Assembly: GCA_001800285.1 (NCBI GenBank) | Contig: MGVC01000013.1 | Span: 1 to 64,000 of the forward strand | Direction: 5' to 3' | DNA: 64,000 nucleotides | From: Elusimicrobia bacterium RIFOXYA2_FULL_39_19 | GTDB lineage: Bacteria > Elusimicrobiota > Endomicrobiia > CG1-02-37-114 > XYA2-FULL-39-19 | Part shown: positions 3,792-31,551 of the stretch, in pieces | Numbering within the stretch: the first letter of the stretch is position 1 | How the letters are laid out: every line of letters begins with the position of its first letter | Notes under the pieces: generated by a model | What the model saw: only the letters and a program-made list of their open reading frames with translations | What the model was told of the DNA's origin: nothing | Databases searched by the model: none | Program-made: the position numbers and the translations under genes

Positions 3792-4259
3792 TTAAATTTT
3801 GAATTTCAGTTCCAATTGCGGGTTCTTTGCTTTAACTTCGTTTAAAATCCCCTGAACAAGATCAATAGCATCGTGAAAGGCCTGATTACTTTCCGTAAAA
3901 GTAACAAAAGCACCTGATTCATATGTCAACAAATTGCGTTTCTTTCTCATTCTTTCAAAATGAGCCGTAACTTTTTCAAATTTCTGTCCTAATATCGATG
4001 TTGTAACTTCAACAACAGTCCTGTGTTGGGCACCATCATCAGGTACATAGCCTTTAAATAAAAGCAAAGCCCTGCCGGCTTTAAGCATGGCATTATAAGC
4101 CATAATATAAGTTGCTTCCTCAACAATTTCTTGAATTTTTGAAGCTTGCGTAAGGTTATGCATCGAACTGATTAATAATTGTTCAATCTGAATTATTCCT
4201 GCTTCCTGTTTTTTGAGTTTATTTTCCTTTAATAGTTTTTGAATCAACTTGTCAGGCAT
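3792..4259 (-). CDS. HEPN-domain protein, partner of nucleotidyltransferase
   Basis: HEPN proteins are small all-helical proteins, many of which are RNases that act as toxins. This 155-residue protein has the helical make-up of the family and a motif RKKRNLLTYE at about residues 105-114. That corresponds to the usual R-x4-6-H active site, but a tyrosine stands where histidine is expected, so RNase activity is doubtful. In the HepT group the corresponding tyrosine is the residue modified by the nucleotidyltransferase partner. The start codon overlaps the end of the nucleotidyltransferase gene by eight bases, so the two are translationally coupled. The HEPN/MNT pair call rests on motif, size and gene arrangement. 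Confidence 0.75.
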   Translation of the reverse strand: MPDKLIQKLLKENKLKKQEAGIIQIEQLLISSMHNLTQASKIQEIVEEATYIMAYNAMLKAGRALLLFKGYVPDDGAQHRTVVEVTTSILGQKFEKVTAHFERMRKKRNLLTYESGAFVTFTESNQAFHDAIDLVQGILNEVKAKNPQLELKFKI

Positions 4260-4821
4260 TTGGGTCTCCCGTGATAGGAATTATTTTTTCCTTAAGGAGC
4301 AATTCAACAAATCCCCCTTTTTGTTTCCGTTTATTCTTAAATTCTTCACTACTGAAAAGCGTATAGTTTATCTCTCTTTGAAGCTTAGTTTCAAGTTTAT
4401 GCACTGATTTTATTAATTCATAATTATCAACTTTACCTACTACACAAAGGTCAATATCGCTTTTTTCATTCTCATTACCTTTTGCAAAAGACCCGTAAAT
4501 AAAAGCTATTTCGATACCATTAATATGCGAAAGGCCAGCTTTAAACAAACCAGAAATGCCTACTGTTTTTGTAACCATGCTTTTTAGTTCATTGTAGAGA
4601 TGAAATTTCTTATTCAGGCGAAAGAAAACCAGATTACCTTTAGCAGAAGAATAGAAAAGGCCGATTTTTTCAAACTTTTTTAGCTGGCGACGGATGTTGC
4701 CAACGGAATGGTGTAGTGATTTCTCTAATTCTCGCAGATAGAATTCTTTATCAGCATTTGCGAAATAGAATCCTAACAAATCTCTTGTTAGTTTTGACCT
4801 TGAGACGTTTAGTATATCCAT
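4252..4821 (-). CDS. Winged-helix/MNT nucleotidyltransferase
   Basis: The 189-residue protein has an N-terminal winged helix (about residues 10-75) fused to a minimal nucleotidyltransferase domain. The catalytic signature is GSFAKG at 110-115 followed by SDIDL at 121-125, which supplies two metal-binding aspartates. A later NYTLFS segment is typical of this subgroup. Such enzymes pair with HEPN proteins and can transfer AMP to them, silencing a toxin. The winged helix may let this protein bind its own promoter, which carries a matching palindrome (4837-4850). The ribosome binding site AGAGGA is six bases before the ATG. It is the first gene of a two-gene operon. Confidence 0.85.
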   Translation of the reverse strand: MDILNVSRSKLTRDLLGFYFANADKEFYLRELEKSLHHSVGNIRRQLKKFEKIGLFYSSAKGNLVFFRLNKKFHLYNELKSMVTKTVGISGLFKAGLSHINGIEIAFIYGSFAKGNENEKSDIDLCVVGKVDNYELIKSVHKLETKLQREINYTLFSSEEFKNKRKQKGGFVELLLKEKIIPITGDPNA

Positions 4822-4833
4822 TTGTAGTCCTCT

Positions 4834-4871
4834 TTGACTACAATTGTAGTATTACTTGACTACAATGTCAA
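4834..4871 (-). promoter_or_regulatory. Promoter with overlapping palindromic operator for HEPN/MNT operon
   Basis: On the minus strand TTGACA (4866-4871) and TACAAT (4843-4848) are separated by exactly 17 bases, a near-consensus sigma70 promoter. The -10 box lies inside the perfect palindrome ACTACAATTGTAGT (4837-4850). The ten-base core TTGTAGTCAA occurs twice, 22 bases apart, at 4834-4843 and 4856-4865, i.e. on the same face of the helix. A third half-site borders the start codon. This is the layout expected for an autorepressed toxin-antitoxin promoter. Confidence 0.75.
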
Positions 4872-4948
4872 CAGGAACCCTTTCCTATCAACCTGGTAGG
4901 ATTAGCGGACTTGTGAGCGTAATAATTTATCAGCACATTAGTATAAAG

Positions 4949-4975
4949 CAACATATGTTTCCGGTTTATAAATGG
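4949..4975. repeat. 27-bp direct repeat, copy 2
   Basis: Near-identical to 3613-3639 (one C/T difference) and in the same orientation. It lies just beyond the 3' end of the YdeI-family gene and about 80 bases upstream of the HEPN/MNT promoter. Confidence 0.8.
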
Positions 4976-5001
4976 CCCTGGCTATGGCCTCTGCTGCACA
5001 T

Positions 5002-5574
5002 TTATATTTTTACAAAACCAAACTTTTTGTTATTTGCGGTCTTTTTAATAAAGTAATCCAGGCTCTTATTAAACAGATCCTGCCCATGCCTGCGCCTGCT
5101 TTCAAGATACCCGATACGGGTCCGCTTATAAACCTCAGGAAATTTTTGGAAATACTTCCAGGCGTCTTGGTTGGCTTGTAATGGTTTCAGAATATCAGGC
5201 GCAATTTTAAATTCAGCTAACTTCTCTTTTGTAGGGTTAAATACGTGGGCCACAGCAGCCAACCCGGCTTTTGTCATCTTTTTATTAGCTATCAGCTTTA
5301 AAAGCCTTTCCCTGTTTGCCTGCGAAAGCACGCTGGTGTTTCTTCTTGGTGTGAACCTCTGGGCAAATCTTTCATTGTCAATTTTCTTTATTGTAGAATC
5401 TATCCAGCCGTAACAAAGAGCCTCTTCAACAGCGTCATTATATTCAATCCTGGGCTTGCCGGTTCCCTTGCGGTAATATATTAACCACACTTCGTGCTTC
5501 TTTTTATAGTTTTTTATCAGCCACGCCCGCCAGGCTTTTCTGGTTTTCAGATATAGTGGATTATTTATTTTCAT
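5002..5574 (-). CDS. YdeI/OmpD-associated family protein
   Basis: The 190-residue protein matches the YdeI/OmdA family, sometimes called bacteriocin-protection proteins. Characteristic segments are WLxKNYxKKxEVWLIYYRKGTGKP near the N-terminus, EALCYGWIDS at about residues 51-60, and RFTPRRNTSVLSQANRERL at about 73-91, followed by a helical C-terminal part. The biochemical role of the family is not settled. It is cytoplasmic and stands alone between repeat-rich gaps. Upstream lies a 240-base stretch packed with inverted repeats, so its promoter is not obvious. Confidence 0.85.
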   Translation of the reverse strand: MKINNPLYLKTRKAWRAWLIKNYKKKHEVWLIYYRKGTGKPRIEYNDAVEEALCYGWIDSTIKKIDNERFAQRFTPRRNTSVLSQANRERLLKLIANKKMTKAGLAAVAHVFNPTKEKLAEFKIAPDILKPLQANQDAWKYFQKFPEVYKRTRIGYLESRRRHGQDLFNKSLDYFIKKTANNKKFGFVKI

Positions 5575-9251: not shown

Positions 9252-10684
9252 TTTTTAGTATCTCCTGGTTTTACAGAATAATACTTCTGTTTTGGACTTG
9301 TAAGTTTGTCTGGAATAGTCGGGTGAAGCAAACCCTGCTCAAGCAATGGATTTAATATTTCTTTTCTGAAATAATCCCTATTTGCAATACCAATAAACTT
9401 TTGCAATTCTTCTCTATTTCGTGGTATTTCACAAAACTCTACAATTTTTCTTACCCGTTTATCTTGCGCGGTAGCTTGCATGGTAGCTTGCATGGTAGCT
9501 TGCATGGTAGAGTAAGGAGTTAATGGAATAATTGTCTTAAAAATATCCTCTTCCAATAGTTTAGGTTCGGTTCCAGAATATATTTTGGTATACTTAAAAA
9601 GTTTCCTGACACCTGAACCAAGCTCATCAGCCCGTCCGATTTCTTTAAATACTTTAGCTATTACAGGATTTTTTGGAAATGGTGTAAAATTTGCGGGATT
9701 AATGAAGCCGTGTCCATGGGGTTTATTGCTGTTTTCAATATAAACACGGTTCTGTTCAATTATAAATTTTGCAGGAAACGGATTAGTATATTCTCTGTGA
9801 ATAAGAATATTACCGGCAACTTCTCTGAAAATGTGGTCCCTGAGGCTAATTCTTTGGTCTTTTTCAATATAAAATTTATCAGGGAGGTGCTTTTCAACAA
9901 AGGCCATAATCCGGTCATAGCTTTCAATCAGATTTGTCCTTATATCATCCCTGTCGTCATACCTGTCAAGGTTCTCTTTTCTTAAAATAGCATCAGTGCG
10001 TAAATGAGGCAAAACAGATAAGATTACATTATCTTTTCCAAAAAGCAAAATCCCTGCCAGGGTAAAACCTTTCTTTCCGCTTTGGTAATCTTTCAGATAA
10101 AGCTGCGCGCTTTTTAGCAATTCAAAGTCATCCATTTCACCCCAAGGGTGCCCGGGCTTCTGATTTACTGCCAATTTCCTGACCCTTTTAATCAAATCTT
10201 TTCTTAAATCACTGATTTTCACAAAAGGGTAGATTTTATTCTCAGAGTAGGCTGCTTGCTTTCGTATATACAAAGTGGTTACAAGATTGGAATTATCAGT
10301 AATATTAAAATCTCCATCTTCGTTGCGGTCAAATATCTTTCCGTTACATCTGTGAACCTGAGAACTTTCAGGAACATTTACATAAAAAATAATTTTGCCG
10401 TTAAGTACAAACTCTTCAGCGGTAAGATATACTGTCGGATTTAGTTTCTGAATGTTGTTTACAGTGGTAGCAAAATCCTTTTTTATCTGTTCCGCACAGG
10501 CCTGGTCAACCCCTGAAATATCACCATTGTCCTTTACGCCTAATAACAACTCCCCGCCAAAACGATTTAAAAATGCGCACACTGTTTCAAAAACATCTTT
10601 GCTAAGTTTAGTTTTGCACTCTTTAAACTCAATTCTTATGCCTTCACCCTGTTTAATAATTTCTTTAATTTTTGATTTATGCAT
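9248..10684 (-). CDS. AlbA_2 / HATPase-like / winged-helix protein in restriction island
   Basis: This 478-residue protein has three parts. An N-terminal AlbA_2 (Schlafen-like) domain carries GIRIEFKE and NRFGGELLLGVKDNG near residues 15-60. A GHKL-type ATPase region of the COG2865 class follows (about 280-395, with REVAGNILIHREY and ELGSGVRKL). A C-terminal winged helix (about 415-470) closes the chain. A hinge made of MQAT repeats (encoded at 9470-9510) joins the last two. COG2865 proteins often sit in type I restriction loci, and their role is unclear. A GTG lies 15 bases upstream, but GGGGA is correctly spaced for the ATG at 10684. It overlaps hsdR by four bases. Confidence 0.85.
   Translation of the reverse strand: MHKSKIKEIIKQGEGIRIEFKECKTKLSKDVFETVCAFLNRFGGELLLGVKDNGDISGVDQACAEQIKKDFATTVNNIQKLNPTVYLTAEEFVLNGKIIFYVNVPESSQVHRCNGKIFDRNEDGDFNITDNSNLVTTLYIRKQAAYSENKIYPFVKISDLRKDLIKRVRKLAVNQKPGHPWGEMDDFELLKSAQLYLKDYQSGKKGFTLAGILLFGKDNVILSVLPHLRTDAILRKENLDRYDDRDDIRTNLIESYDRIMAFVEKHLPDKFYIEKDQRISLRDHIFREVAGNILIHREYTNPFPAKFIIEQNRVYIENSNKPHGHGFINPANFTPFPKNPVIAKVFKEIGRADELGSGVRKLFKYTKIYSGTEPKLLEEDIFKTIIPLTPYSTMQATMQATMQATAQDKRVRKIVEFCEIPRNREELQKFIGIANRDYFRKEILNPLLEQGLLHPTIPDKLTSPKQKYYSVKPGDTKK
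9470..9510. repeat. 12-bp tandem repeat (about 3.4 copies) inside the AlbA_2 gene
   Basis: The unit GGTAGCTTGCAT is repeated three times exactly, followed by a partial copy. On the coding strand it encodes the tetrapeptide MQAT repeated in frame. Because the unit is 12 bases, gain or loss of copies changes hinge length without breaking the frame. Confidence 0.9.
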
Positions 10685-10703
10685 TTTATAATTCCCCACA
10701 TAA

Positions 10704-10733
10704 CGTCATATTCGGGCCTGACCCGGATATCCA
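10704..10733. repeat. Degenerate CGGGCNTGACCCGG palindromic repeat
   Basis: The gap between hsdS and the AlbA_2 gene holds TTCGGGCCTGACCCGGAT, an imperfect inverted repeat (CGGG / CCCG). It looks like a worn copy of the GC-rich CCGGGCTTGACCCGG repeat that I know from many bacterial genomes. It has no U-run and is not a terminator. Confidence 0.5.
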
Positions 10734-10739
10734 TATTAT

Positions 10740-11960
10740 TTACAATTCCCCTGAAAATGCTTTTTTCAGAATACTCTTTTTCAGCTCTTCCAAATCCGCC
10801 AGCTTTTGCTCATAAATCCCTTCCAACTTCTTCGTCTCACTTGAAAGTGCATCTAACTTCTCAACAATCGCTTTTTGCTCATTCATATTTGGAAATGAAA
10901 ATTCAATTTGCTTCAATATTTTTACTGCCACAACATTCTGAATAGCTGCTCCTTGAGAATACTTCTTTAAACTTTCTTGAAAACTATTACTTTCAATCCA
11001 ATATTTTAAGAAATTACTTAATAATTCTTTTTTTACCGTAAGTTTTAATAATGCTTGGTTTATAATTCCCTTTTTTATTTCATTTGGAGCTATAGCAATT
11101 TTACCCATCGTTCCAGAGCAACTCATTATCAAGTCTCCTGGAAACAACTCAAATCGTTTCATCTCTTGAAACTTTTCCTTATCAATAAAATACCTTATAT
11201 TGGTAAATTGATTATATATAGCATGTTGTTGCTCATATACCGCAAAACCCTGTGCTTTGAAAATATTTTTTTTCAGGCTTCCACCAAAGGGGCCTCTCAC
11301 AAAAACGCAAACTTCCACCAATCTTTTCTTTTTCCAATCTTTACCCGGTTTCTCAAAAACATTCTGCAAATAGGATTCAAAAAGCTCTTTGGCATTTTTC
11401 AGATTCTTCTCAGCATTCTCTCTTGCCTTCTCAATCCCCCCAAAAACCTCATCCAAATTCTTCACAATCCGGCGTTGTTCGGGAAGCGGTGGGATAGGTA
11501 CATCAATATTTTTATACAACTTGGAATCAAGGTTTCTTATTCCTGTCGAATGACTCTGCATTGCCTCGGTTATTCCAGATATGTATGAATAAAACAGGTA
11601 CATATGCAGATAATTAAAATCAATTTGATTTGTTTTTTTTATTCGTATTACAGATGTAAAATTACTAAAAGAATAATCGCCATCTTTTTTGTCAAATATA
11701 ATTACCCGACCAACTGGCTGCTTTGGCCCTCCTCCTGATTTTTCAAGAATAATATCTCCGTAAACCAGTTTTCGTTTTACGAATTGTTTTTTTTCAACAT
11801 CTAAATATGCTATATCAGAATCGTTTAGTTTTCCGTCTTTCGATATATTAGTGTTTCTAATCACACCAACATTTATGTATGGTGGCTCCTTGCCCTTCCA
11901 TAGCCCATTAAGGAAATCACAAGCCTCACCAAGTTTTTTTGTTTGCCAATTAGTTTTCAT
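10740..11960 (-). CDS. hsdS: Type I restriction-modification specificity subunit
   Basis: HsdS reads the DNA target and holds the methylase and nuclease subunits together. The 406-residue chain shows the classic two-fold layout. The first target recognition domain covers about residues 1-150. A helical spacer follows that begins IPPLPEQRRIV and continues as a long charged coil to about 205. A second recognition domain covers 210-350, and a second helical segment starts at NEQKAIVEKL and ends with ILKKAFSGEL. Both halves are intact, so the target should be a bipartite sequence. The ribosome binding site is weak. The gene follows the IS-disrupted membrane gene after nine bases, so its expression may have depended on the transcript now interrupted by the IS. 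Confidence 0.92.
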   Translation of the reverse strand: MKTNWQTKKLGEACDFLNGLWKGKEPPYINVGVIRNTNISKDGKLNDSDIAYLDVEKKQFVKRKLVYGDIILEKSGGGPKQPVGRVIIFDKKDGDYSFSNFTSVIRIKKTNQIDFNYLHMYLFYSYISGITEAMQSHSTGIRNLDSKLYKNIDVPIPPLPEQRRIVKNLDEVFGGIEKARENAEKNLKNAKELFESYLQNVFEKPGKDWKKKRLVEVCVFVRGPFGGSLKKNIFKAQGFAVYEQQHAIYNQFTNIRYFIDKEKFQEMKRFELFPGDLIMSCSGTMGKIAIAPNEIKKGIINQALLKLTVKKELLSNFLKYWIESNSFQESLKKYSQGAAIQNVVAVKILKQIEFSFPNMNEQKAIVEKLDALSSETKKLEGIYEQKLADLEELKKSILKKAFSGEL

Positions 11961-23373: not shown

Positions 23374-23928
23374 TTAGCCGCCCGGCTCAAGTTTGAGAAA
23401 TTCTTTTAGAAATCTGGATAATTTTCCAAGCAGGTTGCCTTTTGCGGTATTTCTGTAATAACCGTCTTCAAGGACCATACATTTTGAATCCAGCAGGTGT
23501 TGGAGGCGCCTTTTAAATACCATTTCCGGAGAATAGATGGCTTTTAGCTGGTCAACGGTTAATTTTTTGTCTTTGGCTATATCCAGCTCAATTATCATTC
23601 TGCCGGATATGGTTCTATCAATGAAAAAGTAAAACTGGCAGTAACCCATCCATAAAAACACAAACAAGCCGTATCCGGTAAGAAAGTTTATTACTCTGGA
23701 TATGTTTATAGATGTCTGGCTGGTCAGCAGAGGGTCTGCTGGAATAAGGACCAGTATGTTTTCCCTGACAAACATATAAACAACTATATAAAGAATGGTA
23801 GAAAGCCAGAAAAACTTTTTGATTACGCCGAATCTTTCATAAATACTGGGTTTTACATTAAATACTATAAGATGACCTACCAGAAAAAACAAAAATGAAA
23901 ATAATCCTAAAACAAGTGCTTTTATCAT
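23374..23928 (-). CDS. Membrane protein with winged-helix-like tail, paralogue A
   Basis: This 184-residue protein has four membrane helices (about 3-25, 37-54, 60-75 with a LIPADP segment, and 80-103). A basic cytoplasmic tail follows (110-184), with TVDQLKAIYSPEMVFKRRLQHLLDSKC that looks like a winged helix. It ends in PGG. The next gene upstream (23984-24535) encodes a clear paralogue sharing LIPADP, the FYFxxDRxxSxRMxxEL segment, the YSPexVxxRRxxHLxxSxC segment and the terminal PGG. I do not recognise the family. Its neighbours make envelope polysaccharide, so a role in sensing or assembly is possible but unproven. Confidence 0.7.
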   Translation of the reverse strand: MIKALVLGLFSFLFFLVGHLIVFNVKPSIYERFGVIKKFFWLSTILYIVVYMFVRENILVLIPADPLLTSQTSINISRVINFLTGYGLFVFLWMGYCQFYFFIDRTISGRMIIELDIAKDKKLTVDQLKAIYSPEMVFKRRLQHLLDSKCMVLEDGYYRNTAKGNLLGKLSRFLKEFLKLEPGG

Positions 23929-23983: not shown

Positions 23984-24535
23984 CTATCCACCTGGCCAAA
24001 CCTGCAGGATTTTCTTTGAAATAGTAAAAATCCAGGAAAGCGCATTGCCCTTGGGAGTGTTTGTATAATAACCGTTTGTTTCTATACTGCAGCCGGATTC
24101 TACTAAATGCTTGAACCGGCGGGCATAGACTTCATCCGGCGAATATACTTTTTTAAGTTCATCATAGGTTACTTTGTTTTGTTTGGATAGTTCAACCATC
24201 ATTCTGACAGATAAGGATCTGTCTAAAATAAAATAAAACTGGCCGTAACACATAAAAAGAAATACGTACAGCATAAATCCGATGGTGAAATTCAGTACTT
24301 TTGAGAGATTGATAATAAATTGCGAGGTAGAGTTTGGGTCTGCGGGTATAAGCAGCAGGCTTTCTCTGGGAATGTAGGCATAAAGTATGATGTAAAGCGG
24401 TATTAAAGCAAAGAAGATATTGCGAATCATGCGAAACCGTTTTTTGATTTCGGTTTTTTTAAAGTGAAATATAACAACGTGAAGAATGAGAAATAAAACA
24501 AAACAAAACAATCCGACAAATAAACCTTTTAACAT
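23984..24535 (-). CDS. Membrane protein with winged-helix-like tail, paralogue B
   Basis: A 183-residue tandem paralogue of the protein at 23374-23928, with the same four membrane helices, the same LIPADP loop, the same basic tail (TYDELKKVYSPDEVYARRFKHLVESGC) and the same C-terminal PGG. By eye about two fifths of residues agree, so the duplication is old, yet both copies keep complete frames. The first helix of each begins with a run like GLFxFxLFLxxHxxxF. Function unknown. It sits 24 bases after the deoxyhypusine-synthase-like gene and 55 bases before paralogue A. Confidence 0.7.
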   Translation of the reverse strand: MLKGLFVGLFCFVLFLILHVVIFHFKKTEIKKRFRMIRNIFFALIPLYIILYAYIPRESLLLIPADPNSTSQFIINLSKVLNFTIGFMLYVFLFMCYGQFYFILDRSLSVRMMVELSKQNKVTYDELKKVYSPDEVYARRFKHLVESGCSIETNGYYTNTPKGNALSWIFTISKKILQVWPGG

Positions 24536-24559: not shown

Positions 24560-25534
24560 CTATTTTTTGAGATTTGTCAGCAGATAATGCAATGACGGTA
24601 TGCTTTCAGCGTGTTTCATGTTGAAGTAGAAACTGCCGCCGCCGTTTGATACAGTTCTGACCAGAAGTGTTTTCCAGGGCCTGAAGTAGTACCTGGGGTC
24701 TGTTTTCCGGGCTTCCCTGCCGTATTTACTGTCTATATTATACAAATCAAACACCGCAGTTGTAAAGTTATTTACCGGCTTACGGGTTTTCTTTGATACG
24801 TTCCTTGCCATAGAAAGAGCTTTAAGGAATACTTCCGGGCCCATGACAGCGGACCCAAAACATAAAAGTACGCCTTTTTCTAAATTAGTTATAGTATTTG
24901 CAAATATCAGGAAGTCCCGGTAAGACGTATCTCCCAGAGCGGCGCCGCTGCAGTTTGGGTGTTCGTGAATGATGTCATAACCGATACCAACGTGTACAGT
25001 AACGGGTACCTTTAATCTATATCCTGCTTCCAGAATACTAAGGTTTTTATATTTGTAATTGCTGTTATTAATGTGTTTGCCTATGGCTTCGCCAAGGCCT
25101 ATTTTGTTTTGATAGGCTTTATTTATAATGTCATTTATTTCACCGGTTTCTTTCCAAAGACCGAACTGGCCGGATTTTATATATTTTGCCACGCTTTCTG
25201 TGGTTTTGCCGAATCGGGTAAGCTCAAAATCGTGTATTGGTCCGGCGCCGTTCATGGCTATGTGCGTAATAAAGCCTTTTTCCATTAAATCTATGATTAA
25301 TGGCGACACACCGGAGCGGATTACGTGTGCACCCATCATTAGAACTACGGAGGCATTATTTTTCTTTGCTTCAATAATAAGCCGGGATAAATCAGTTAGA
25401 TTTTTGTTTTTTAGATGCTTTTGTACCGGTTTTGTTTCAGGAAAAGTGTGAAGGGACAGGTCTGATACTCTTTTGTCAAACGGAAACAGGGTGATTTTAG
25501 AGCGGTCAAATGTTTTGTATTGGGACTTTGGCAT
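24560..25534 (-). CDS. Deoxyhypusine-synthase-like protein in heptose operon
   Basis: The 324-residue protein resembles the deoxyhypusine synthase fold, an NAD-binding Rossmann-like family. Segments supporting this are MGAHVIRSGVSPLIIDLM and THIAMNGAGPIHDFEL at about 67-105, then a glycine-rich GIGYDIIHEHP at about 185-195. The C-terminal stretch with NGGGSFYFNMKHAES carries a lysine near where the true enzyme has its active lysine. Bacteria of this kind have no hypusine pathway, and the gene overlaps gmhA by one base (TAATG). A sugar-phosphate substrate tied to heptose synthesis is therefore more likely than a protein one. Fold assignment is from memory of conserved segments, and function is open. 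Confidence 0.6.
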   Translation of the reverse strand: MPKSQYKTFDRSKITLFPFDKRVSDLSLHTFPETKPVQKHLKNKNLTDLSRLIIEAKKNNASVVLMMGAHVIRSGVSPLIIDLMEKGFITHIAMNGAGPIHDFELTRFGKTTESVAKYIKSGQFGLWKETGEINDIINKAYQNKIGLGEAIGKHINNSNYKYKNLSILEAGYRLKVPVTVHVGIGYDIIHEHPNCSGAALGDTSYRDFLIFANTITNLEKGVLLCFGSAVMGPEVFLKALSMARNVSKKTRKPVNNFTTAVFDLYNIDSKYGREARKTDPRYYFRPWKTLLVRTVSNGGGSFYFNMKHAESIPSLHYLLTNLKK

Positions 25535-26094
25535 TATTTTTCAATTTCCATGAAGTAGTAAGCAATGGCATGGCAGATGAGGGTTTGGATATCTTCTACG
25601 TGGCCGTAATGTTTTGACGGTATAATTAGGCAGAGGTCAGACAGTTTTATCAGCTGGCCGTTATGGTCACCTACAATGGCGGCAGTTTTTAAACCGGACT
25701 GCTTGGCTTTTTTGAACGCTTCTACAAGGTTTGGTGAATTACCGCTGACGCTTATGGCTATAAGCAAGTCATCTTTTTTGCAGAAGTTTTCAATTTGTTG
25801 GGAGAATATTTTATCGTAGCCATTGTCGTTACCTATGGCAGTAAGCCAGGGAATTTCGTTTGAAGGGCAGAAAACTTTGAATTTCTTTGATTTGTTAGTT
25901 GAAGCGCCTTTACCCAGGTCTACCTGTAAATGTGCTGCGCAGGTGGCACTGCCTCCGTTACCGATAATAAAAATCTGGTTATCAGTATCGCGGGTTGCTT
26001 TGACTATTTTCAGGAGTTCTGCGATTTTTTTGCTTTCAAGGAGGTTAACTATGTCTTTATGCGTTGAAAGGTATTTGCTTAAAAAGTTTTCCAT
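25534..26094 (-). CDS. gmhA: Sedoheptulose-7-phosphate isomerase
   Basis: GmhA converts sedoheptulose-7-phosphate into D-glycero-D-manno-heptose-7-phosphate, the first committed step towards nucleotide-heptose. The 186-residue protein is a SIS-domain enzyme with GNGGSA at 46-51, AHLQVDLGKG at 54-63, the serine-rich phosphate loop SVSGNSPN at 115-122 and HVEDIQTLICHAI at 165-177. The last bears the histidines and glutamate typical of the GmhA active site. Length is normal. Its neighbours, an HldE-like enzyme upstream and a split transketolase further up, fit the same pathway. The short gap to the hldE-like gene (37 bases) and the overlap with the next gene mark a single operon. Confidence 0.88.
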   Translation of the reverse strand: MENFLSKYLSTHKDIVNLLESKKIAELLKIVKATRDTDNQIFIIGNGGSATCAAHLQVDLGKGASTNKSKKFKVFCPSNEIPWLTAIGNDNGYDKIFSQQIENFCKKDDLLIAISVSGNSPNLVEAFKKAKQSGLKTAAIVGDHNGQLIKLSDLCLIIPSKHYGHVEDIQTLICHAIAYYFMEIEK

Positions 26095-26131: not shown

Positions 26132-27664
26132 TTATTTCATGAAACTTTGAATGAGTTTTGTGAGATCGCCGTAATCAATGGTCTCTTTGTTTCCTAAATA
26201 CTGCACTGCCAGCGCGCCTGCGCAGTTTCCTATGAATGATACTATTTCCGGATCTGTGTCAAGGAATGTCAGTGGCGATGTAAGAGCAAGCACTGCATCA
26301 CCTGCGCCGATGGTATCAATTACTTTCCAGGAGAAAGCAGGGACTCTGTGGAACTTCCCTTTTTTATAGTAAAGAGTGCCTTCATGGCCCAGTGTGGTAT
26401 TTAAGCACGGGCAATGAAGCTGTTTGGAAATCTTTTTTACCATAGGTTCAAACTCACCGTGCTGTTCGTGGCAGGCAAGGCGTGTTTCTACGTGGTCAAT
26501 GACTATATAATCGGCCCTATTGTATTTGGTGATTAAATTGTAGCCTAAGTTTGCGCTGTTTGACTGGGTCATGGCTACAAGATAGGGTGATTTGGTGCAC
26601 AATTGGTTTACAATATTTTTGGTTATAAACCCGTGGCCGAAATCTGCCGCTATAACCATGTCATATTTTCCGAAAAGTTTGCTGAGCAATGCCATTACTT
26701 TTTTTTCTGTAGCAGTGTTGATAGGATAATCGTTAAAATGGCATACCTCAAACATTTTCTGCATGAAGACACCTTCAAGGTACCTGCGTTTGGTTACCGT
26801 AGGGCCGTCTTCGCGGTAGCACGGGAATAATTTTACGTTTGGTTTTATATGTGACCTGATAAATTTTTCGTGTGAGTTTTCCCTGCCCAACATGCCTACA
26901 AGGCCTACTTCATCAACAAAACCTGCCAGGTGGTTTGCTACGCATAACGCGCCGCCGGCATAAAGTTCCTTGGATTGGAAAAGAGTGGAAACGGTAGTAG
27001 ATTTTGATGCTCTTTGCATCAAGTGGCAGAAATTATATTCGTCAATAATGGGTTCGCCGATAATCAGAACTTTGAGTTTCTGAATTTTGCTTAAAGCTTT
27101 TGTTACTTCGTTTACGTCATGTCTTTTATTAAAATCCTGAAGAAACTGTTTGATATGTTTAGGCATAATATCAAAGTTTTCTTTAATTATTTTTGTGGAG
27201 GAGAACACTTCATCAGAAGTGAACTCCATTCTTCCGCCTACTGATTTTACGGCTTTTTCTTCCAGTGAAAGGCGGCCGGTAGGGTCTGATTCTACGGAGC
27301 CAAAATCAGAACCTTTTACATATACGTTAGGTTTAATAAGTGTTATGGTTTCTGTGGCAGTAGGAGTGTTGTTTATGGAAACGTAATCTACGCAGTCAAG
27401 GGCGGCTATGGCTTCTGCGCGGTGAATCTCGTTAAATACCGGCCTGCCGGGGCCTCTTTTGACGTAACGGTCAGGGGTAATAGTAACCACCAGAATATCT
27501 CCTTTGCGTTTTGCTGACTGGAGATACTTTATGTGGCCAATATGCATTAAATCAAAACAACCGTGACAATGAACTACTGATTTGCCGTGTTTTTTGAGGT
27601 TTTCTACTATTTTTATGAGGTGTTGCAGGTCTGCTATTTTGGTTGAATCGTCATTTTTTGTCAT
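26132..27664 (-). CDS. hldE: Bifunctional heptose nucleotidyltransferase/kinase, domains in reversed order
   Basis: HldE phosphorylates heptose-7-phosphate at C1 and later couples heptose-1-phosphate to a nucleotide. This 510-residue protein contains both activities but in the opposite order to E. coli HldE. The cytidylyltransferase-type domain is N-terminal (HGCFDLMHIGHIKYL at 34-48, with HxGH, and FSSTKII at 154-160). A PfkB-type sugar kinase is C-terminal (about 195-505, GGALCVANHLAG near 237-248 and DTIGAGDAVLAL near 450, which carries the catalytic Asp). Whether the nucleotide is ATP, GTP or CTP cannot be read from the sequence. It overlaps the HD gene by four bases and sits directly before gmhA. 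Confidence 0.88.
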   Translation of the reverse strand: MTKNDDSTKIADLQHLIKIVENLKKHGKSVVHCHGCFDLMHIGHIKYLQSAKRKGDILVVTITPDRYVKRGPGRPVFNEIHRAEAIAALDCVDYVSINNTPTATETITLIKPNVYVKGSDFGSVESDPTGRLSLEEKAVKSVGGRMEFTSDEVFSSTKIIKENFDIMPKHIKQFLQDFNKRHDVNEVTKALSKIQKLKVLIIGEPIIDEYNFCHLMQRASKSTTVSTLFQSKELYAGGALCVANHLAGFVDEVGLVGMLGRENSHEKFIRSHIKPNVKLFPCYREDGPTVTKRRYLEGVFMQKMFEVCHFNDYPINTATEKKVMALLSKLFGKYDMVIAADFGHGFITKNIVNQLCTKSPYLVAMTQSNSANLGYNLITKYNRADYIVIDHVETRLACHEQHGEFEPMVKKISKQLHCPCLNTTLGHEGTLYYKKGKFHRVPAFSWKVIDTIGAGDAVLALTSPLTFLDTDPEIVSFIGNCAGALAVQYLGNKETIDYGDLTKLIQSFMK

Positions 27665-28266
27665 GCGTATAGTTTCCCCATGTCTGCAGTTTTAAAATTA
27701 TTGCATATGCTATGAAATTTGCCCATGAATTTATGAACATTTGTTGCCAGTTTTTTCCCTGATTTCGTATAAAACCGGTTATAGAAAAAAACTTCGTACT
27801 TTTCTGAGCGTTCAACTAACGGAAACATGTCAATCTTTTTTCCGGTTAAAACACAAAAACGGATTATGCGCGTAAATCCCAAGGGGCCTACAAGCTGAAG
27901 CTTATCAGCATCCCAGAGAATTTTGGCTTCTGTGGTTTTTTTAAAAGAACCTTTGTTATGCTGGGCTATGCAGTAACATACTTTTTTAATAAATGTTTTC
28001 GGAGCTTTGATTTTTTGAAGATATATTCTGGCAAGTTTTGCCCCTACTACACCGTGCTTTTTACGGAATTTGTCTGCAGCTATATCGTGCAGGTAAGCTG
28101 ATACCGTGCAAAGTTCCATGTCAGCTTTTTCCTTTATTGCCAGAAACTGTGCTATTTTTACGGTGAGGTTTATATGGTCAAACTTATGGTCAAAACCGTT
28201 TGTTTTACAATTATTTTTTGAATAAGCAATGATTTGCTTTAATTGTTTATAAGAAAGAACATTCAT
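27661..28266 (-). CDS. HD-domain hydrolase in heptose operon
   Basis: The 201-residue protein has the metal-binding residues of the HD superfamily: H31, H60-D61 (AYLHDIAAD) and D119 (LWDADKL), with further histidines at 71 and 103. The family hydrolyses phosphate esters and nucleotides. It is soluble, and both its borders overlap neighbours by four bases (ATGA), so it is tightly coupled to the hldE-like gene. The heptose pathway normally needs a phosphatase (GmhB, HAD family) between the two HldE steps, and no GmhB is seen here. This protein could take that role, but that is inference. Confidence 0.75.
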   Translation of the reverse strand: MNVLSYKQLKQIIAYSKNNCKTNGFDHKFDHINLTVKIAQFLAIKEKADMELCTVSAYLHDIAADKFRKKHGVVGAKLARIYLQKIKAPKTFIKKVCYCIAQHNKGSFKKTTEAKILWDADKLQLVGPLGFTRIIRFCVLTGKKIDMFPLVERSEKYEVFFYNRFYTKSGKKLATNVHKFMGKFHSICNNFKTADMGKLYA

Positions 28267-29732
28267 TTAGCTTTTACTTTTTCTGCGGTATGCCTGAAGA
28301 CTTCCTGTTTTAAACTGCGCCAGTAAATCCTGAGGGATTCCATTGGCGTAGTTTTAGTGACGTATATTCTGTTGCGTATGATATACATTTTTACAAGCCA
28401 GTAAAGGAAAATATAGAATCTGTTGTGTTTTAGCCAGATGAGATGATTTACAATAAGGTTGCGCAAAAAAGGAAGCGTAGTAGCTACAGCGCCTAACTCT
28501 GCAATGTTTTGCTGGGCGTTTTTTTCTTTTTCGTTGAAACAGTTTAATTCCGAGCGGTACATGTAGGAAGTATGCATTTTTTCATAATTCGGAGTGTACA
28601 GGCCCATATTAATTGTCTGTTCCCCCAGTTCAGTTCTCGGGTAAGGATAAAAAATAAGAAATTCAGACCAGGTAACTTTGCTTTTGATGCAGATGTCTAT
28701 GGATTCAATATCCTGCTCTATCTTTGTGTTTGGCAGACCTATGATGCAGTTTGTGAACGTGTAGATGCCGTACTTATCGCAGAGCCTGTGGGCGCGGATA
28801 ATGTCATCGCTGGACATGTTGCGTTTCAGCTGGGTATTGCGCACATCAACATTTCCGGCTTCAATTGACATGCTGATAGTTCTGCAACCGGATGCTTTTA
28901 GAAGCTTTATCATGTCTTCGTTAAGCAAGTCTGCGCGGGTTAAGATAAAGTAAGGCAGGTTAATCTCTTTTTTATACTTCTTTGCAAATTCTTCAAGCCA
29001 TTCATCGGCACGGTAGCTGAAAATGTCATCGTAAAACTTTACTGTTGATAAAGGCCATTTTTCGCGGACTTTTACAATGTTTTCAATGGTTTTATCTACA
29101 GACATTCTGCGTACTATTTTACCTTTTCCCTGGTACATTTTGTTCCAGGACGGGTTAAAACAGTAAGTGCATTTGTAAGGGCAGCCGCGTGAAACCATAA
29201 AGGATTTCAGCGGTGATTTACCCATGGGTGTATTGTCATACATTAAACCGTAATCTGGGATAGGCAGGCAATCAAGGTCTTCTACCAGGTTTCTGATATC
29301 ATAGGTTTTGGTGTTTTTTGTCATTAAGTTCTGAATGCCTTCTATGGGTTTACCTGCGGAAAAAGCTCTTAAAAAATCGCGGAACGCTTCATCGCTTTCA
29401 CCTATAAATATGGCATCTAGGGTACTGTCATGTATGAGCTCCGAAAAAAACGTAGGATGTGGGCCGCCCATAATAGTGAATATGTTCGGGTGTTTTTCTT
29501 TTATTGTTTTGTTTAAGTGAAAATAATGTTTTGATTCACCGGTAGAAGAGCTGTAAGCTATTATATCCGGTTTTATCTTTTCAATTTTTTCAAAAGGGTC
29601 TTCATTGTTTATTTCGCAAAGAAAGCTCTGGTGGCCTTCCTGTTTGGCAATGGCCGATATATACATCGGACCAATGTTGGCAATGAAGTTTTCCATCTTG
29701 AAAATGAAAAGAATTTTTAAAGAATCTTTCAT
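28263..29732 (-). CDS. B12-binding domain radical SAM protein (2 of 5)
   Basis: The 489-residue protein has an N-terminal cobalamin-binding-like domain (about 1-130, with IMGGPHPTFFSELI and IFIGESDEAF) and a radical SAM core with C184-x3-C188-x2-C191 (VSRGCPYKCTYCF). The C-terminal 100 residues are rich in aromatic and basic residues and contain a hydrophobic stretch (RFYIFLYWLVKMYIIRNRIYV). It overlaps the transketolase subunit gene by one base and the HD gene by four. Being inside the heptose operon, it might act on a heptose-containing or lipid-linked intermediate; the sequence itself does not show the substrate. Confidence 0.85.
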   Translation of the reverse strand: MKDSLKILFIFKMENFIANIGPMYISAIAKQEGHQSFLCEINNEDPFEKIEKIKPDIIAYSSSTGESKHYFHLNKTIKEKHPNIFTIMGGPHPTFFSELIHDSTLDAIFIGESDEAFRDFLRAFSAGKPIEGIQNLMTKNTKTYDIRNLVEDLDCLPIPDYGLMYDNTPMGKSPLKSFMVSRGCPYKCTYCFNPSWNKMYQGKGKIVRRMSVDKTIENIVKVREKWPLSTVKFYDDIFSYRADEWLEEFAKKYKKEINLPYFILTRADLLNEDMIKLLKASGCRTISMSIEAGNVDVRNTQLKRNMSSDDIIRAHRLCDKYGIYTFTNCIIGLPNTKIEQDIESIDICIKSKVTWSEFLIFYPYPRTELGEQTINMGLYTPNYEKMHTSYMYRSELNCFNEKEKNAQQNIAELGAVATTLPFLRNLIVNHLIWLKHNRFYIFLYWLVKMYIIRNRIYVTKTTPMESLRIYWRSLKQEVFRHTAEKVKAK

Positions 29733-30661
29733 TATTTCCCCAATTCATTTTTCACTATTTTTGTAACATTTTCGGCATCAATTCCGATTAAACCGTGTAA
29801 GTAATCGCGAGTGCCGTATCTTCTGCAATAATCATCCGGAAGGCCGATTTTTCTTAAAGGTTTGCTTATGCGGTTTTCTACAAGCAGGTCAGATATAATG
29901 CTGCCTACGCCGCCGATAATGCTGTGTTCTTCAAGGGTGAAAATCTCCTTTGACTGGTTGATTACATCAATCATAAGTTCCGTGTTTAAGGGTTTGATTC
30001 TATAAAGGTCAACTACGCTAACATCGATGGAATGCTGTTTTTTAAGGGTTTCCGCTGCCTTAAGCGCTGTTACTACCATTTTGCCGGTAGCAATTATCAC
30101 GGCGCTGCCGTTGCCTTTACGAAGCACGTTAAGGCCTTTCTTGAAATCTTCTTCTTTTGCGTTTGGATAAACCAGAGGCTGGCCGTATCTTTCAAGACGG
30201 ACATATACAGGGCCCGGGATATCATAAGAAAGCTTTGCAAACAGTTTACCGGTCACTTCATCTGACGGGCTAAGAATGGTAAGGCCCGGAAGAGTTCTCA
30301 TAACAGCTATATCTTCGTGTGCGTGATGTGTAGGGCCAAGAGTACAATAATCAAGGCCGGCACCAACACCGATAGCTTTTACGTTTAAGTTTGTTGCGCA
30401 TACATCAACTCTGTAATGTTCAAAACACCTGAGCGTAACAAACGGGATAATGGCATACACATACACGGTTTTTCCGCATAGCGCCAATCCGGCAGCAACG
30501 CTTATCATATTCAGTTCTGCTATACCCACGTTGATACATCTGCTGGCTATGGTTTTTCTTACATCGTCTAATACCAGAGCACCGGTATCAGAGGTAAGAA
30601 GTACTACATCATCATCTTTTTTTAATACTTCATGTAATCCTTGAAAGAAATCCGCTCTCAT
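29732..30661 (-). CDS. Transketolase, C-terminal subunit
   Basis: Split transketolases move two-carbon units between sugar phosphates using thiamine diphosphate; one product is sedoheptulose-7-phosphate, the substrate of GmhA. This 309-residue subunit holds the pyrimidine-binding domain with INVGIAELNMISVAAGLAL (about 42-60, containing the glutamate that activates the cofactor), the FVTLRCFEHYRVD segment, and the C-terminal transketolase domain (about 190-305). The N-terminal subunit is the gene just upstream, 23 bases away. The pair may also serve a DXS-like or TktAB-like reaction, but sitting with gmhA and an hldE-like gene favours supply of heptose precursor. Confidence 0.9.
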   Translation of the reverse strand: MRADFFQGLHEVLKKDDDVVLLTSDTGALVLDDVRKTIASRCINVGIAELNMISVAAGLALCGKTVYVYAIIPFVTLRCFEHYRVDVCATNLNVKAIGVGAGLDYCTLGPTHHAHEDIAVMRTLPGLTILSPSDEVTGKLFAKLSYDIPGPVYVRLERYGQPLVYPNAKEEDFKKGLNVLRKGNGSAVIIATGKMVVTALKAAETLKKQHSIDVSVVDLYRIKPLNTELMIDVINQSKEIFTLEEHSIIGGVGSIISDLLVENRISKPLRKIGLPDDYCRRYGTRDYLHGLIGIDAENVTKIVKNELGK

Positions 30662-30684
30662 TTTAGGTCTCCTTTTTTAGTTAT

Positions 30685-31551
30685 TTATTTCTTTTTGGTG
30701 CATTTGCAGAATTTTGCTTCATATTCATCGCCGTGCAGTTCTTTTCTGGCTTTCTCTACTTCGTCTCCCACCGGGATTCTGAAGTGCCATATGGCCTTGT
30801 TTTCCATGAATGATACGCCTTTACCTTTTGTGGTATTGGCTATTATGCACAGAGGTTTGGATGATTTTCTGTTTCTGAAAGTTTTAAATAAAGGAATCAT
30901 TTCGTCATAAGAGTGGCCGTTAACTTCCTTAACGTCAAATCCGAAGGCTTCGAATTTGCCTCTTAACGGTTCCAGCCCCATGGCTTCTTCAGTGAAATCA
31001 ATGGCCTGCAGTTTGTTTCTGTCAACTATAACTATAAGGTTGTTCAGTTTATGCTGAGATGCGAACATGGCGGCTTCCCAGTTTGAACCTTCCTGTAATT
31101 CGCCGTCACCTACAAGGACTACGGTGACAAAATCCTTTTTATCCATTTTAGCGGCTAATGCCATACCGGCGCCTATGGGAAATCCGTGGCCTAATGATCC
31201 GGTGAAAGCTTCTACGCCTACTACATTGGATTCTGAGTGGCCTCCAAGCTTGCTTCCCTTCTGGCAGTATGTATTAAGTTCTGAAACAGGAAAATAACCC
31301 ATATCAGCAAGTATAGCATACTGAGCGGCACATGACTGGCCTTTTGAAAGAATGAACATGTCACGGCCCTTCATCTTAGGGTTTTTCGGGTCTACTCTAA
31401 GCACCCCGCCCTGATATAATGCTACTAAAATGTCCGTGCAAGAATATGCCGGAGCTACGTGGCCTGCTCCTGCGCAAAGAGCCATTTCAAGCACTGTTTG
31501 TCTTACCCATCTGGCTTTTTTCTCTAAATCCGCAAATTTACTTTTTTTCAT
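30685..31551 (-). CDS. Transketolase, N-terminal subunit
   Basis: This 288-residue subunit carries the diphosphate-binding domain of transketolase. The thiamine-diphosphate motif is VGDGELQEGSNWEAAMFASQHKLNNLIVIVDRN region at about 152-184, shown here by its GDGELQEG start and N-rich end. GHVAPAYSCTDILVALY near 30-46 and GSLGHGFPIGAG near 117-128 are also family hallmarks. The C-terminus ends in a short cysteine- and lysine-rich tail (FCKCTKKK). An AAAGGAG ribosome binding site precedes the ATG. It pairs with the C-terminal subunit at 29732-30661 and follows the GT2 gene after 16 bases. Confidence 0.9.
   Translation of the reverse strand: MKKSKFADLEKKARWVRQTVLEMALCAGAGHVAPAYSCTDILVALYQGGVLRVDPKNPKMKGRDMFILSKGQSCAAQYAILADMGYFPVSELNTYCQKGSKLGGHSESNVVGVEAFTGSLGHGFPIGAGMALAAKMDKKDFVTVVLVGDGELQEGSNWEAAMFASQHKLNNLIVIVDRNKLQAIDFTEEAMGLEPLRGKFEAFGFDVKEVNGHSYDEMIPLFKTFRNRKSSKPLCIIANTTKGKGVSFMENKAIWHFRIPVGDEVEKARKELHGDEYEAKFCKCTKKK

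Follow-up and report, generated by a model that had tools for sequence, protein, structure and literature searches.

The window analyzed here is a 64,000-nucleotide stretch of an Elusimicrobia genome (Elusimicrobia bacterium RIFOXYA2_FULL_39_19, contig MGVC01000013.1). Its interval 24560..25534 is filled by a single minus-strand open reading frame (25534..24560; 324 codons), the product of which we call X. X lies directly downstream of a gmhA-like gene in one minus-strand operon, and the A at position 25534 is common to the gmhA stop codon (TAA) and the ATG of X (TAATG, a 1-base overlap). The initial annotation was right about the single shared base, but had assigned it to the start of gmhA; on the minus strand it belongs to the stop. 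In 5′ to 3′ order, the operon comprises:

30685..31551, minus strand: split transketolase, N-terminal half (PF00456)
29732..30661, minus strand: split transketolase, C-terminal half (PF02779, PF02780)
28263..29732, minus strand: B12-binding radical SAM protein (PF04055, PF02310)
27661..28266, minus strand: HD-domain hydrolase (PF01966, E = 1e-11)
26132..27664, minus strand: HldE-like bifunctional protein (PF01467 at 34-161, PF00294 at 199-492)
25534..26094, minus strand: gmhA-like sugar-phosphate isomerase (SIS domain, SIS_2)
24560..25534, minus strand: X, a GSU2086-family protein of 324 aa (predicted NAD fold of the deoxyhypusine synthase (DHS)/ArgZ type; group II, see below)

From the C-terminal transketolase half onward, most junctions overlap by 1–4 bases. 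The genes neighboring X in the window are sugar genes, in keeping with the initial annotation. The gmhA-like product scored 105 bits against TIGR00441, under the equivalog cut-off of 209, and the HldE-like protein scored 114 bits against TIGR02199 and 100 bits against TIGR02198. The domain order of the latter is reversed relative to E. coli HldE, with the nucleotidyltransferase (HldC-like) preceding the PfkB kinase (HldA-like). The cluster has no GmhB; the HD-domain hydrolase is a possible replacement phosphatase, and some related clusters carry gmhB at that place. The B12 radical SAM gene recurs in related clusters (similar proteins occur in loci L012, L030, and L036), and its product possibly modifies the heptose or a lipid or glycan. 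The split transketolase (29732–31551) beside heptose genes is a pattern found in approximately nine related clusters, archaeal ones included, and this enzyme could be the source of sedoheptulose 7-phosphate.

Directly downstream of X lie two tandem genes for similar membrane proteins of ~184 aa (23374–23928 and 23984–24535), the first without an NCBIfam match and the second without a Pfam match. Scans for promoters and terminators returned no more matches than in shuffled sequence.

Family, fold, and conserved residues of X

X belongs to NCBIfam NF052581, the GSU2086 family (385.2 bits over residues 9–316, cut-off 250). The initial annotation had suggested an unrecognized enzyme for a sugar phosphate, perhaps of a heptose branch. 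The family is in fact already catalogued, though without an assigned function; the placement in sugar-phosphate or heptose metabolism is supported by the linkage to heptose genes, and further by the mutual exclusion with HldD and the operon slot, all described below. The open-access literature searched on GSU2086, on DHS in connection with heptose or LPS, and on alternative heptose epimerases yielded no functional description; the sole mention of GSU2086 was as a hypothetical protein listed in a Tn-seq table (PMC5585712).

Both segments that the initial annotation quoted as typical of the DHS fold are present in X (GAHVIRSG, residues 68–75; NGAGPIHDFE, residues 95–104). X scored 15.6 bits against Pfam DS (PF01916, E = 0.01) and 21.9 bits against ArgZ-like_C_2nd (PF21570, E = 1.5e-4), missing the gathering threshold of 27 in both cases, and had no match to TIGR02197 (HldD, heptose_epim) at E ≤ 0.001. 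A PDB sequence search with X as a single query returned nothing reliable; a profile of 56 X relatives weakly matched ArgZ and AgrE (E = 6e-4 to 3e-3), and profile–profile comparison of the X family with archaeal DHS gave a whole-length alignment (E = 2e-7, global, to 3e-5, local). The AlphaFold model of X, built on an alignment of relatives, reached a pLDDT of 94.8 and a pTM of 0.92. Foldseek matched this model to DHS (8put, E = 3.2e-9, probability 1.00, TM 0.53–0.55), to a LOR/SDH protein (3c2q, E = 8e-9), and to AgrE (6lrh, E = 1e-8); ArgZ was matched as well, and all these hits had a probability of 1.00 and a TM of about 0.5. The resemblance of X to DHS is beyond chance, yet remote by sequence. 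The predicted structure shows the fold of the NAD enzymes DHS and ArgZ/AgrE, and X itself is predicted to bind NAD. The DHS-like fold put forward in the initial annotation was thereby borne out, and membership of the DHS family was not.

The nearest sequence-level matches, namely the ArgZ/AgrE C-terminal domain and 3c2q, would favor an amino-acid enzyme of the ornithine cyclodeaminase or LOR/SDH type. We nevertheless regard such an activity as very improbable, given that X lies beneath the Pfam cut-off and that the family is linked to sugar genes throughout.

Invariant positions in 82 X relatives include R22, G68, H70, N95, H101, E104, E113, G122, F124, G125, T179, H181, G185, D187, D207, F208, E234, K238, D263, and R285. 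The basic residues among them (R22, H70, H101, H181, K238, and R285) would fit a phosphorylated substrate. The tree of X has two deep groups, and group I contains the LPS-type members and proteins in which X is fused to GmhA. The window copy falls in group II near L012 (an archaeon), L029 (Methanoperedens), L022/L023 (Nitrospirota), L030, and L036, with moderate support, and these tree neighbors come from clusters resembling its own. In the profile alignment, K288 of X is at or beside the catalytic lysine of DHS (SWGK segment). This residue is invariant in group II (45/45), whereas group I has K, E, Q, or T there, hence a DHS-type lysine step is not general to the X family.

The shared fold and the position of K288 are the points in favor of X being a true deoxyhypusine or homospermidine synthase. 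We consider this exceedingly unlikely: X is under the DS cut-off, the aligned lysine varies in group I, polyamine genes are missing among the recurrent neighbors, and X-bearing archaea also have a genuine DHS. No genuine DHS was found in the window genome at E ≤ 1e-10. A polyamine or hypusine role of X was rejected given its gene context, the family cut-offs, and the residues.

Gene neighborhoods of the X family

The neighborhood survey covered 80 loci from the genome collection plus loci from the window's relatives, clustered by neighboring gene. The hosts were archaea, Planctomycetota, Bacillota, Chloroflexota, Acidobacteriota, Nitrospirota, Desulfobacterota, Omnitrophota, Elusimicrobiota, Poribacteria, and others. 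An HldA-like PfkB kinase was near X in 55 loci and was the adjacent gene in 41. GmhA was found near X in 21 loci, a HAD phosphatase in 20 (adjacent in 15), GmhB in 12, HldC in 10, transketolase halves in 7–9, KdsB in 7, and KdsA in 5; many group II clusters had no HldC nearby. Heptosyltransferases were also linked to X, as in an Omnitrophota operon with the order heptosyltransferases-X-HldA-KdsB-KdsA, and among Desulfobacterota, GmhA lay ≤1.5 kb from X in 79 of the 89 genomes that carry X. The linkage to gmhA first noticed in the window thus extends to heptose and Kdo genes elsewhere. No polyamine gene was among the recurrent neighbors of X in the 80 loci and the window's relatives. Neither a lack of fold similarity nor a consistent polyamine linkage, which the initial annotation had named as grounds against its proposal, was found.

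In five proteins of 560–570 aa (L018, L063, L065, L066, and L070), from Bathyarchaeota, Brockarchaeota, Thermoproteota, and Chloroflexota, X is fused to a C-terminal GmhA domain. Such fusions, together with the tight coupling of the two genes, could also mean that X is not a main-route enzyme but a partner that assists or regulates GmhA or the kinase. However, the more than 30 invariant residues (H, K, R, D, and E among them) and the NAD-enzyme fold suggest catalysis, and a partner role leaves the exclusion with HldD unexplained; we think it improbable.

Two further arrangements were observed. Ornatilinea apprima (L018) has two X genes ~4.5 kb apart (3828–5528 and 9995–10966), one fused to GmhA and the other separate beside a HAD phosphatase and kinase. 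In Poribacteria (L079-L082, L091), X often directly follows an O-antigen-ligase-like (Wzy_C) gene and lacks the usual adjacent kinase.

Near-mutual exclusion of X and HldD

The presence of L-glycero-D-manno-heptose is characteristic of the LPS inner core, and textbooks ascribe the last step in making this sugar to HldD. Among 56 X genomes, a GmhA-like protein (E ≤ 1e-20) was present in 55 and HldD over its cut-off in one. We then used samples chosen irrespective of X from three phyla: 149 genomes of the window's phylum (≥90% complete), 148 of Desulfobacterota (the phylum of the Desulfobulbaceae genome G104), and 146 of Omnitrophota (the phylum of genome G106). HldD was called by TIGR02197 at E ≤ 1e-55, and the Desulfobacterota count was limited to matches over the cut-off. 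In the window's phylum, 16 of the 149 genomes had only X, 128 only HldD (17 of these calls being slightly under the curated cut-off), none both, and five neither. At the level of genera, 15 had X and 43 had HldD, with zero overlap. Both states occur, in different genera, within a single family (f19) and likewise within the window's own order. The best generic epimerases in the X genomes of this phylum scored ~154 bits or less.

The GmhA-positive Desulfobacterota genomes comprised 77 with X only, 30 with HldD only, nine with both, and 15 with neither. The 146 Omnitrophota genomes divided into 57, 77, six, and six, respectively (two of 83 HldD calls being slightly under the curated cut-off). Pooled over the three phyla (n = 443), X alone was found in 153 genomes, HldD alone in 237, both in 15, and neither in 38. 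Fisher tests in the three phyla gave p = 2e-17, 5e-11, and 2e-26, values that ignore shared ancestry and are descriptive only. The 15 genomes with both proteins speak against a replacement of HldD by X; in two of them (G137 and G182), X is located away from gmhA. X and HldD are nearly mutually exclusive in the three phyla.

The exclusion is matched by a swap in gene order. Among the HldD genomes of the window's phylum, the order HldD-HldA-KdsB occurs in 11, usually with KdsA or PyrG next, and GmhB-DUF3108-HldD in three. The X genomes include seven with the order GmhB-DUF3108-X-HldA-KdsB, which in some continues with PyrG and KdsA. X occupies the hldD slot in this phylum: gmhB-DUF3108-[hldD or X]-hldA-kdsB.

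The exclusion and the operon swap were observed mostly with group I, whereas the window copy belongs to group II. The window genome encodes a second X (G000:C13:127970-129016; L011 7971-9017), which sits on the group I side of the tree on a long branch. This second copy (C13:127997) is likelier than the window copy to be the HldD stand-in for the LPS core. Because the window copy is a paralogue belonging to a second heptose cluster, its exact product is less certain, and its function is assigned from family membership and operon context rather than from the exclusion test. As to its surroundings, the second X adjoins a class III aminotransferase-like gene, a neighbor that recurs in the sister genome G001 (L009), and is near a full-length transketolase.

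Proposed function and relation to known systems

We propose that the GSU2086 family is an NAD-dependent activated-heptose enzyme that substitutes for HldD (ADP-heptose 6-epimerase). We hold this to be fairly likely, with NAD binding, epimerase activity, substrate, and product all predicted from fold, gene context, and distribution. Between sedoheptulose 7-phosphate and ADP-heptose, every step but C6 epimerization can be assigned to a known enzyme encoded in or close to such clusters, which leaves this one step without an enzyme. Both DHS and AgrE, the latter in its ornithine cyclodeaminase domain, use NAD to oxidize and then re-reduce within a single catalytic cycle, and HldD performs an equivalent redox cycle on ADP-heptose, at C6, using bound NADP. 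Because these enzymes recycle their cofactor in one turnover, we propose that X likewise oxidizes C6 and returns the hydride. NAD bound to X would oxidize the C6 hydroxyl, the C6 ketone would either turn over or be attacked on its opposite side, and the hydride taken from C6 would be given back to that other face, probably converting D-glycero-manno-heptose to the L-glycero form. The compact operon in the window (split transketolase, GmhA-like, X, and HldE-like proteins) is predicted to provide another activated heptose, carried on a nucleotide and destined for a surface glycan.

The GmhA fusion and coupling suggest that the substrate of X is a sugar phosphate (sedoheptulose 7-phosphate or heptose 7-phosphate) and not ADP-heptose. 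X might then be an NAD-dependent C6 epimerase for sugar phosphates that forms a class of its own, built on the DHS fold and acting before nucleotide activation where HldD is absent, a version to which we give somewhat less than even chances. HldA divergence between X and HldD genomes is no greater than that of KdsB or KdsA, hence this comparison does not favor a substrate change before the kinase. Nor can gene order date the X step, as hldD itself adjoins hldA in relatives.

Alternatively, X could act in the heptose pathway but yield another heptose isomer or derivative where HldD organisms have L,D-heptose. X is also common in LPS-less lineages (archaea, Bacillota, and Chloroflexota), where it is accompanied by a kinase and a HAD phosphatase of its own, and window-type clusters have divergent GmhA, HldA, and HldC under the equivalog cut-offs. 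Yet, with the in-place swap for HldD and the near-perfect exclusion in LPS operons, and with the same HldA, KdsA, KdsB, and heptosyltransferase neighbors, equal function is the simplest explanation, and we rate a different product as unlikely.

X is probably a second, previously unrecognized route to the heptose found in the outer membranes and surface sugars of bacteria; among the 390 sampled genomes with exactly one of X and HldD, ~40% have X. If replacement of HldD by X is correct, a gap in LPS pathway models would be closed for Geobacter relatives, Omnitrophota, and the window's phylum. Heptose activation would then also reach several archaea, Bacillota, and Planctomycetota, and the chemistry known for the DHS fold would come to include sugars. 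Should X act before activation, many bacteria and some archaea would make activated L-glycero-heptose with epimerization first.

Among known systems, DHS (PF01916, TIGR00321) resembles X in its full-length fold, the G-A-x...N-G-A...HD motif, and probable NAD use. It differs in that X is under the family cut-off, does not keep the lysine family-wide, and has a sugar rather than a polyamine context. The ArgZ/AgrE C-terminal domain and the archaeal LOR/SDH-like 3c2q share the fold and the HDxE motif with X; these proteins act on amino-acid substrates, and X is beneath the Pfam cut-off. Geobacter sulfurreducens GSU2086 is of the same family (NF052581) and also sits between gmhA and hldE, whereas the window copy is of group II and lies in a split-transketolase cluster. 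In a Tn-seq study of G. sulfurreducens on electrodes, log2 values were -3.1 for GSU2085 (hldE), -3.2 for GSU2086, and -3.7 for GSU2087 (gmhA) (PMC5585712); these similar defects speak for the proposed role, although they could reflect a polar effect within the operon. HldD is of another family (SDR-type epimerases) but resembles X, mostly its group I members, in proposed role, operon position, and mutually exclusive distribution.
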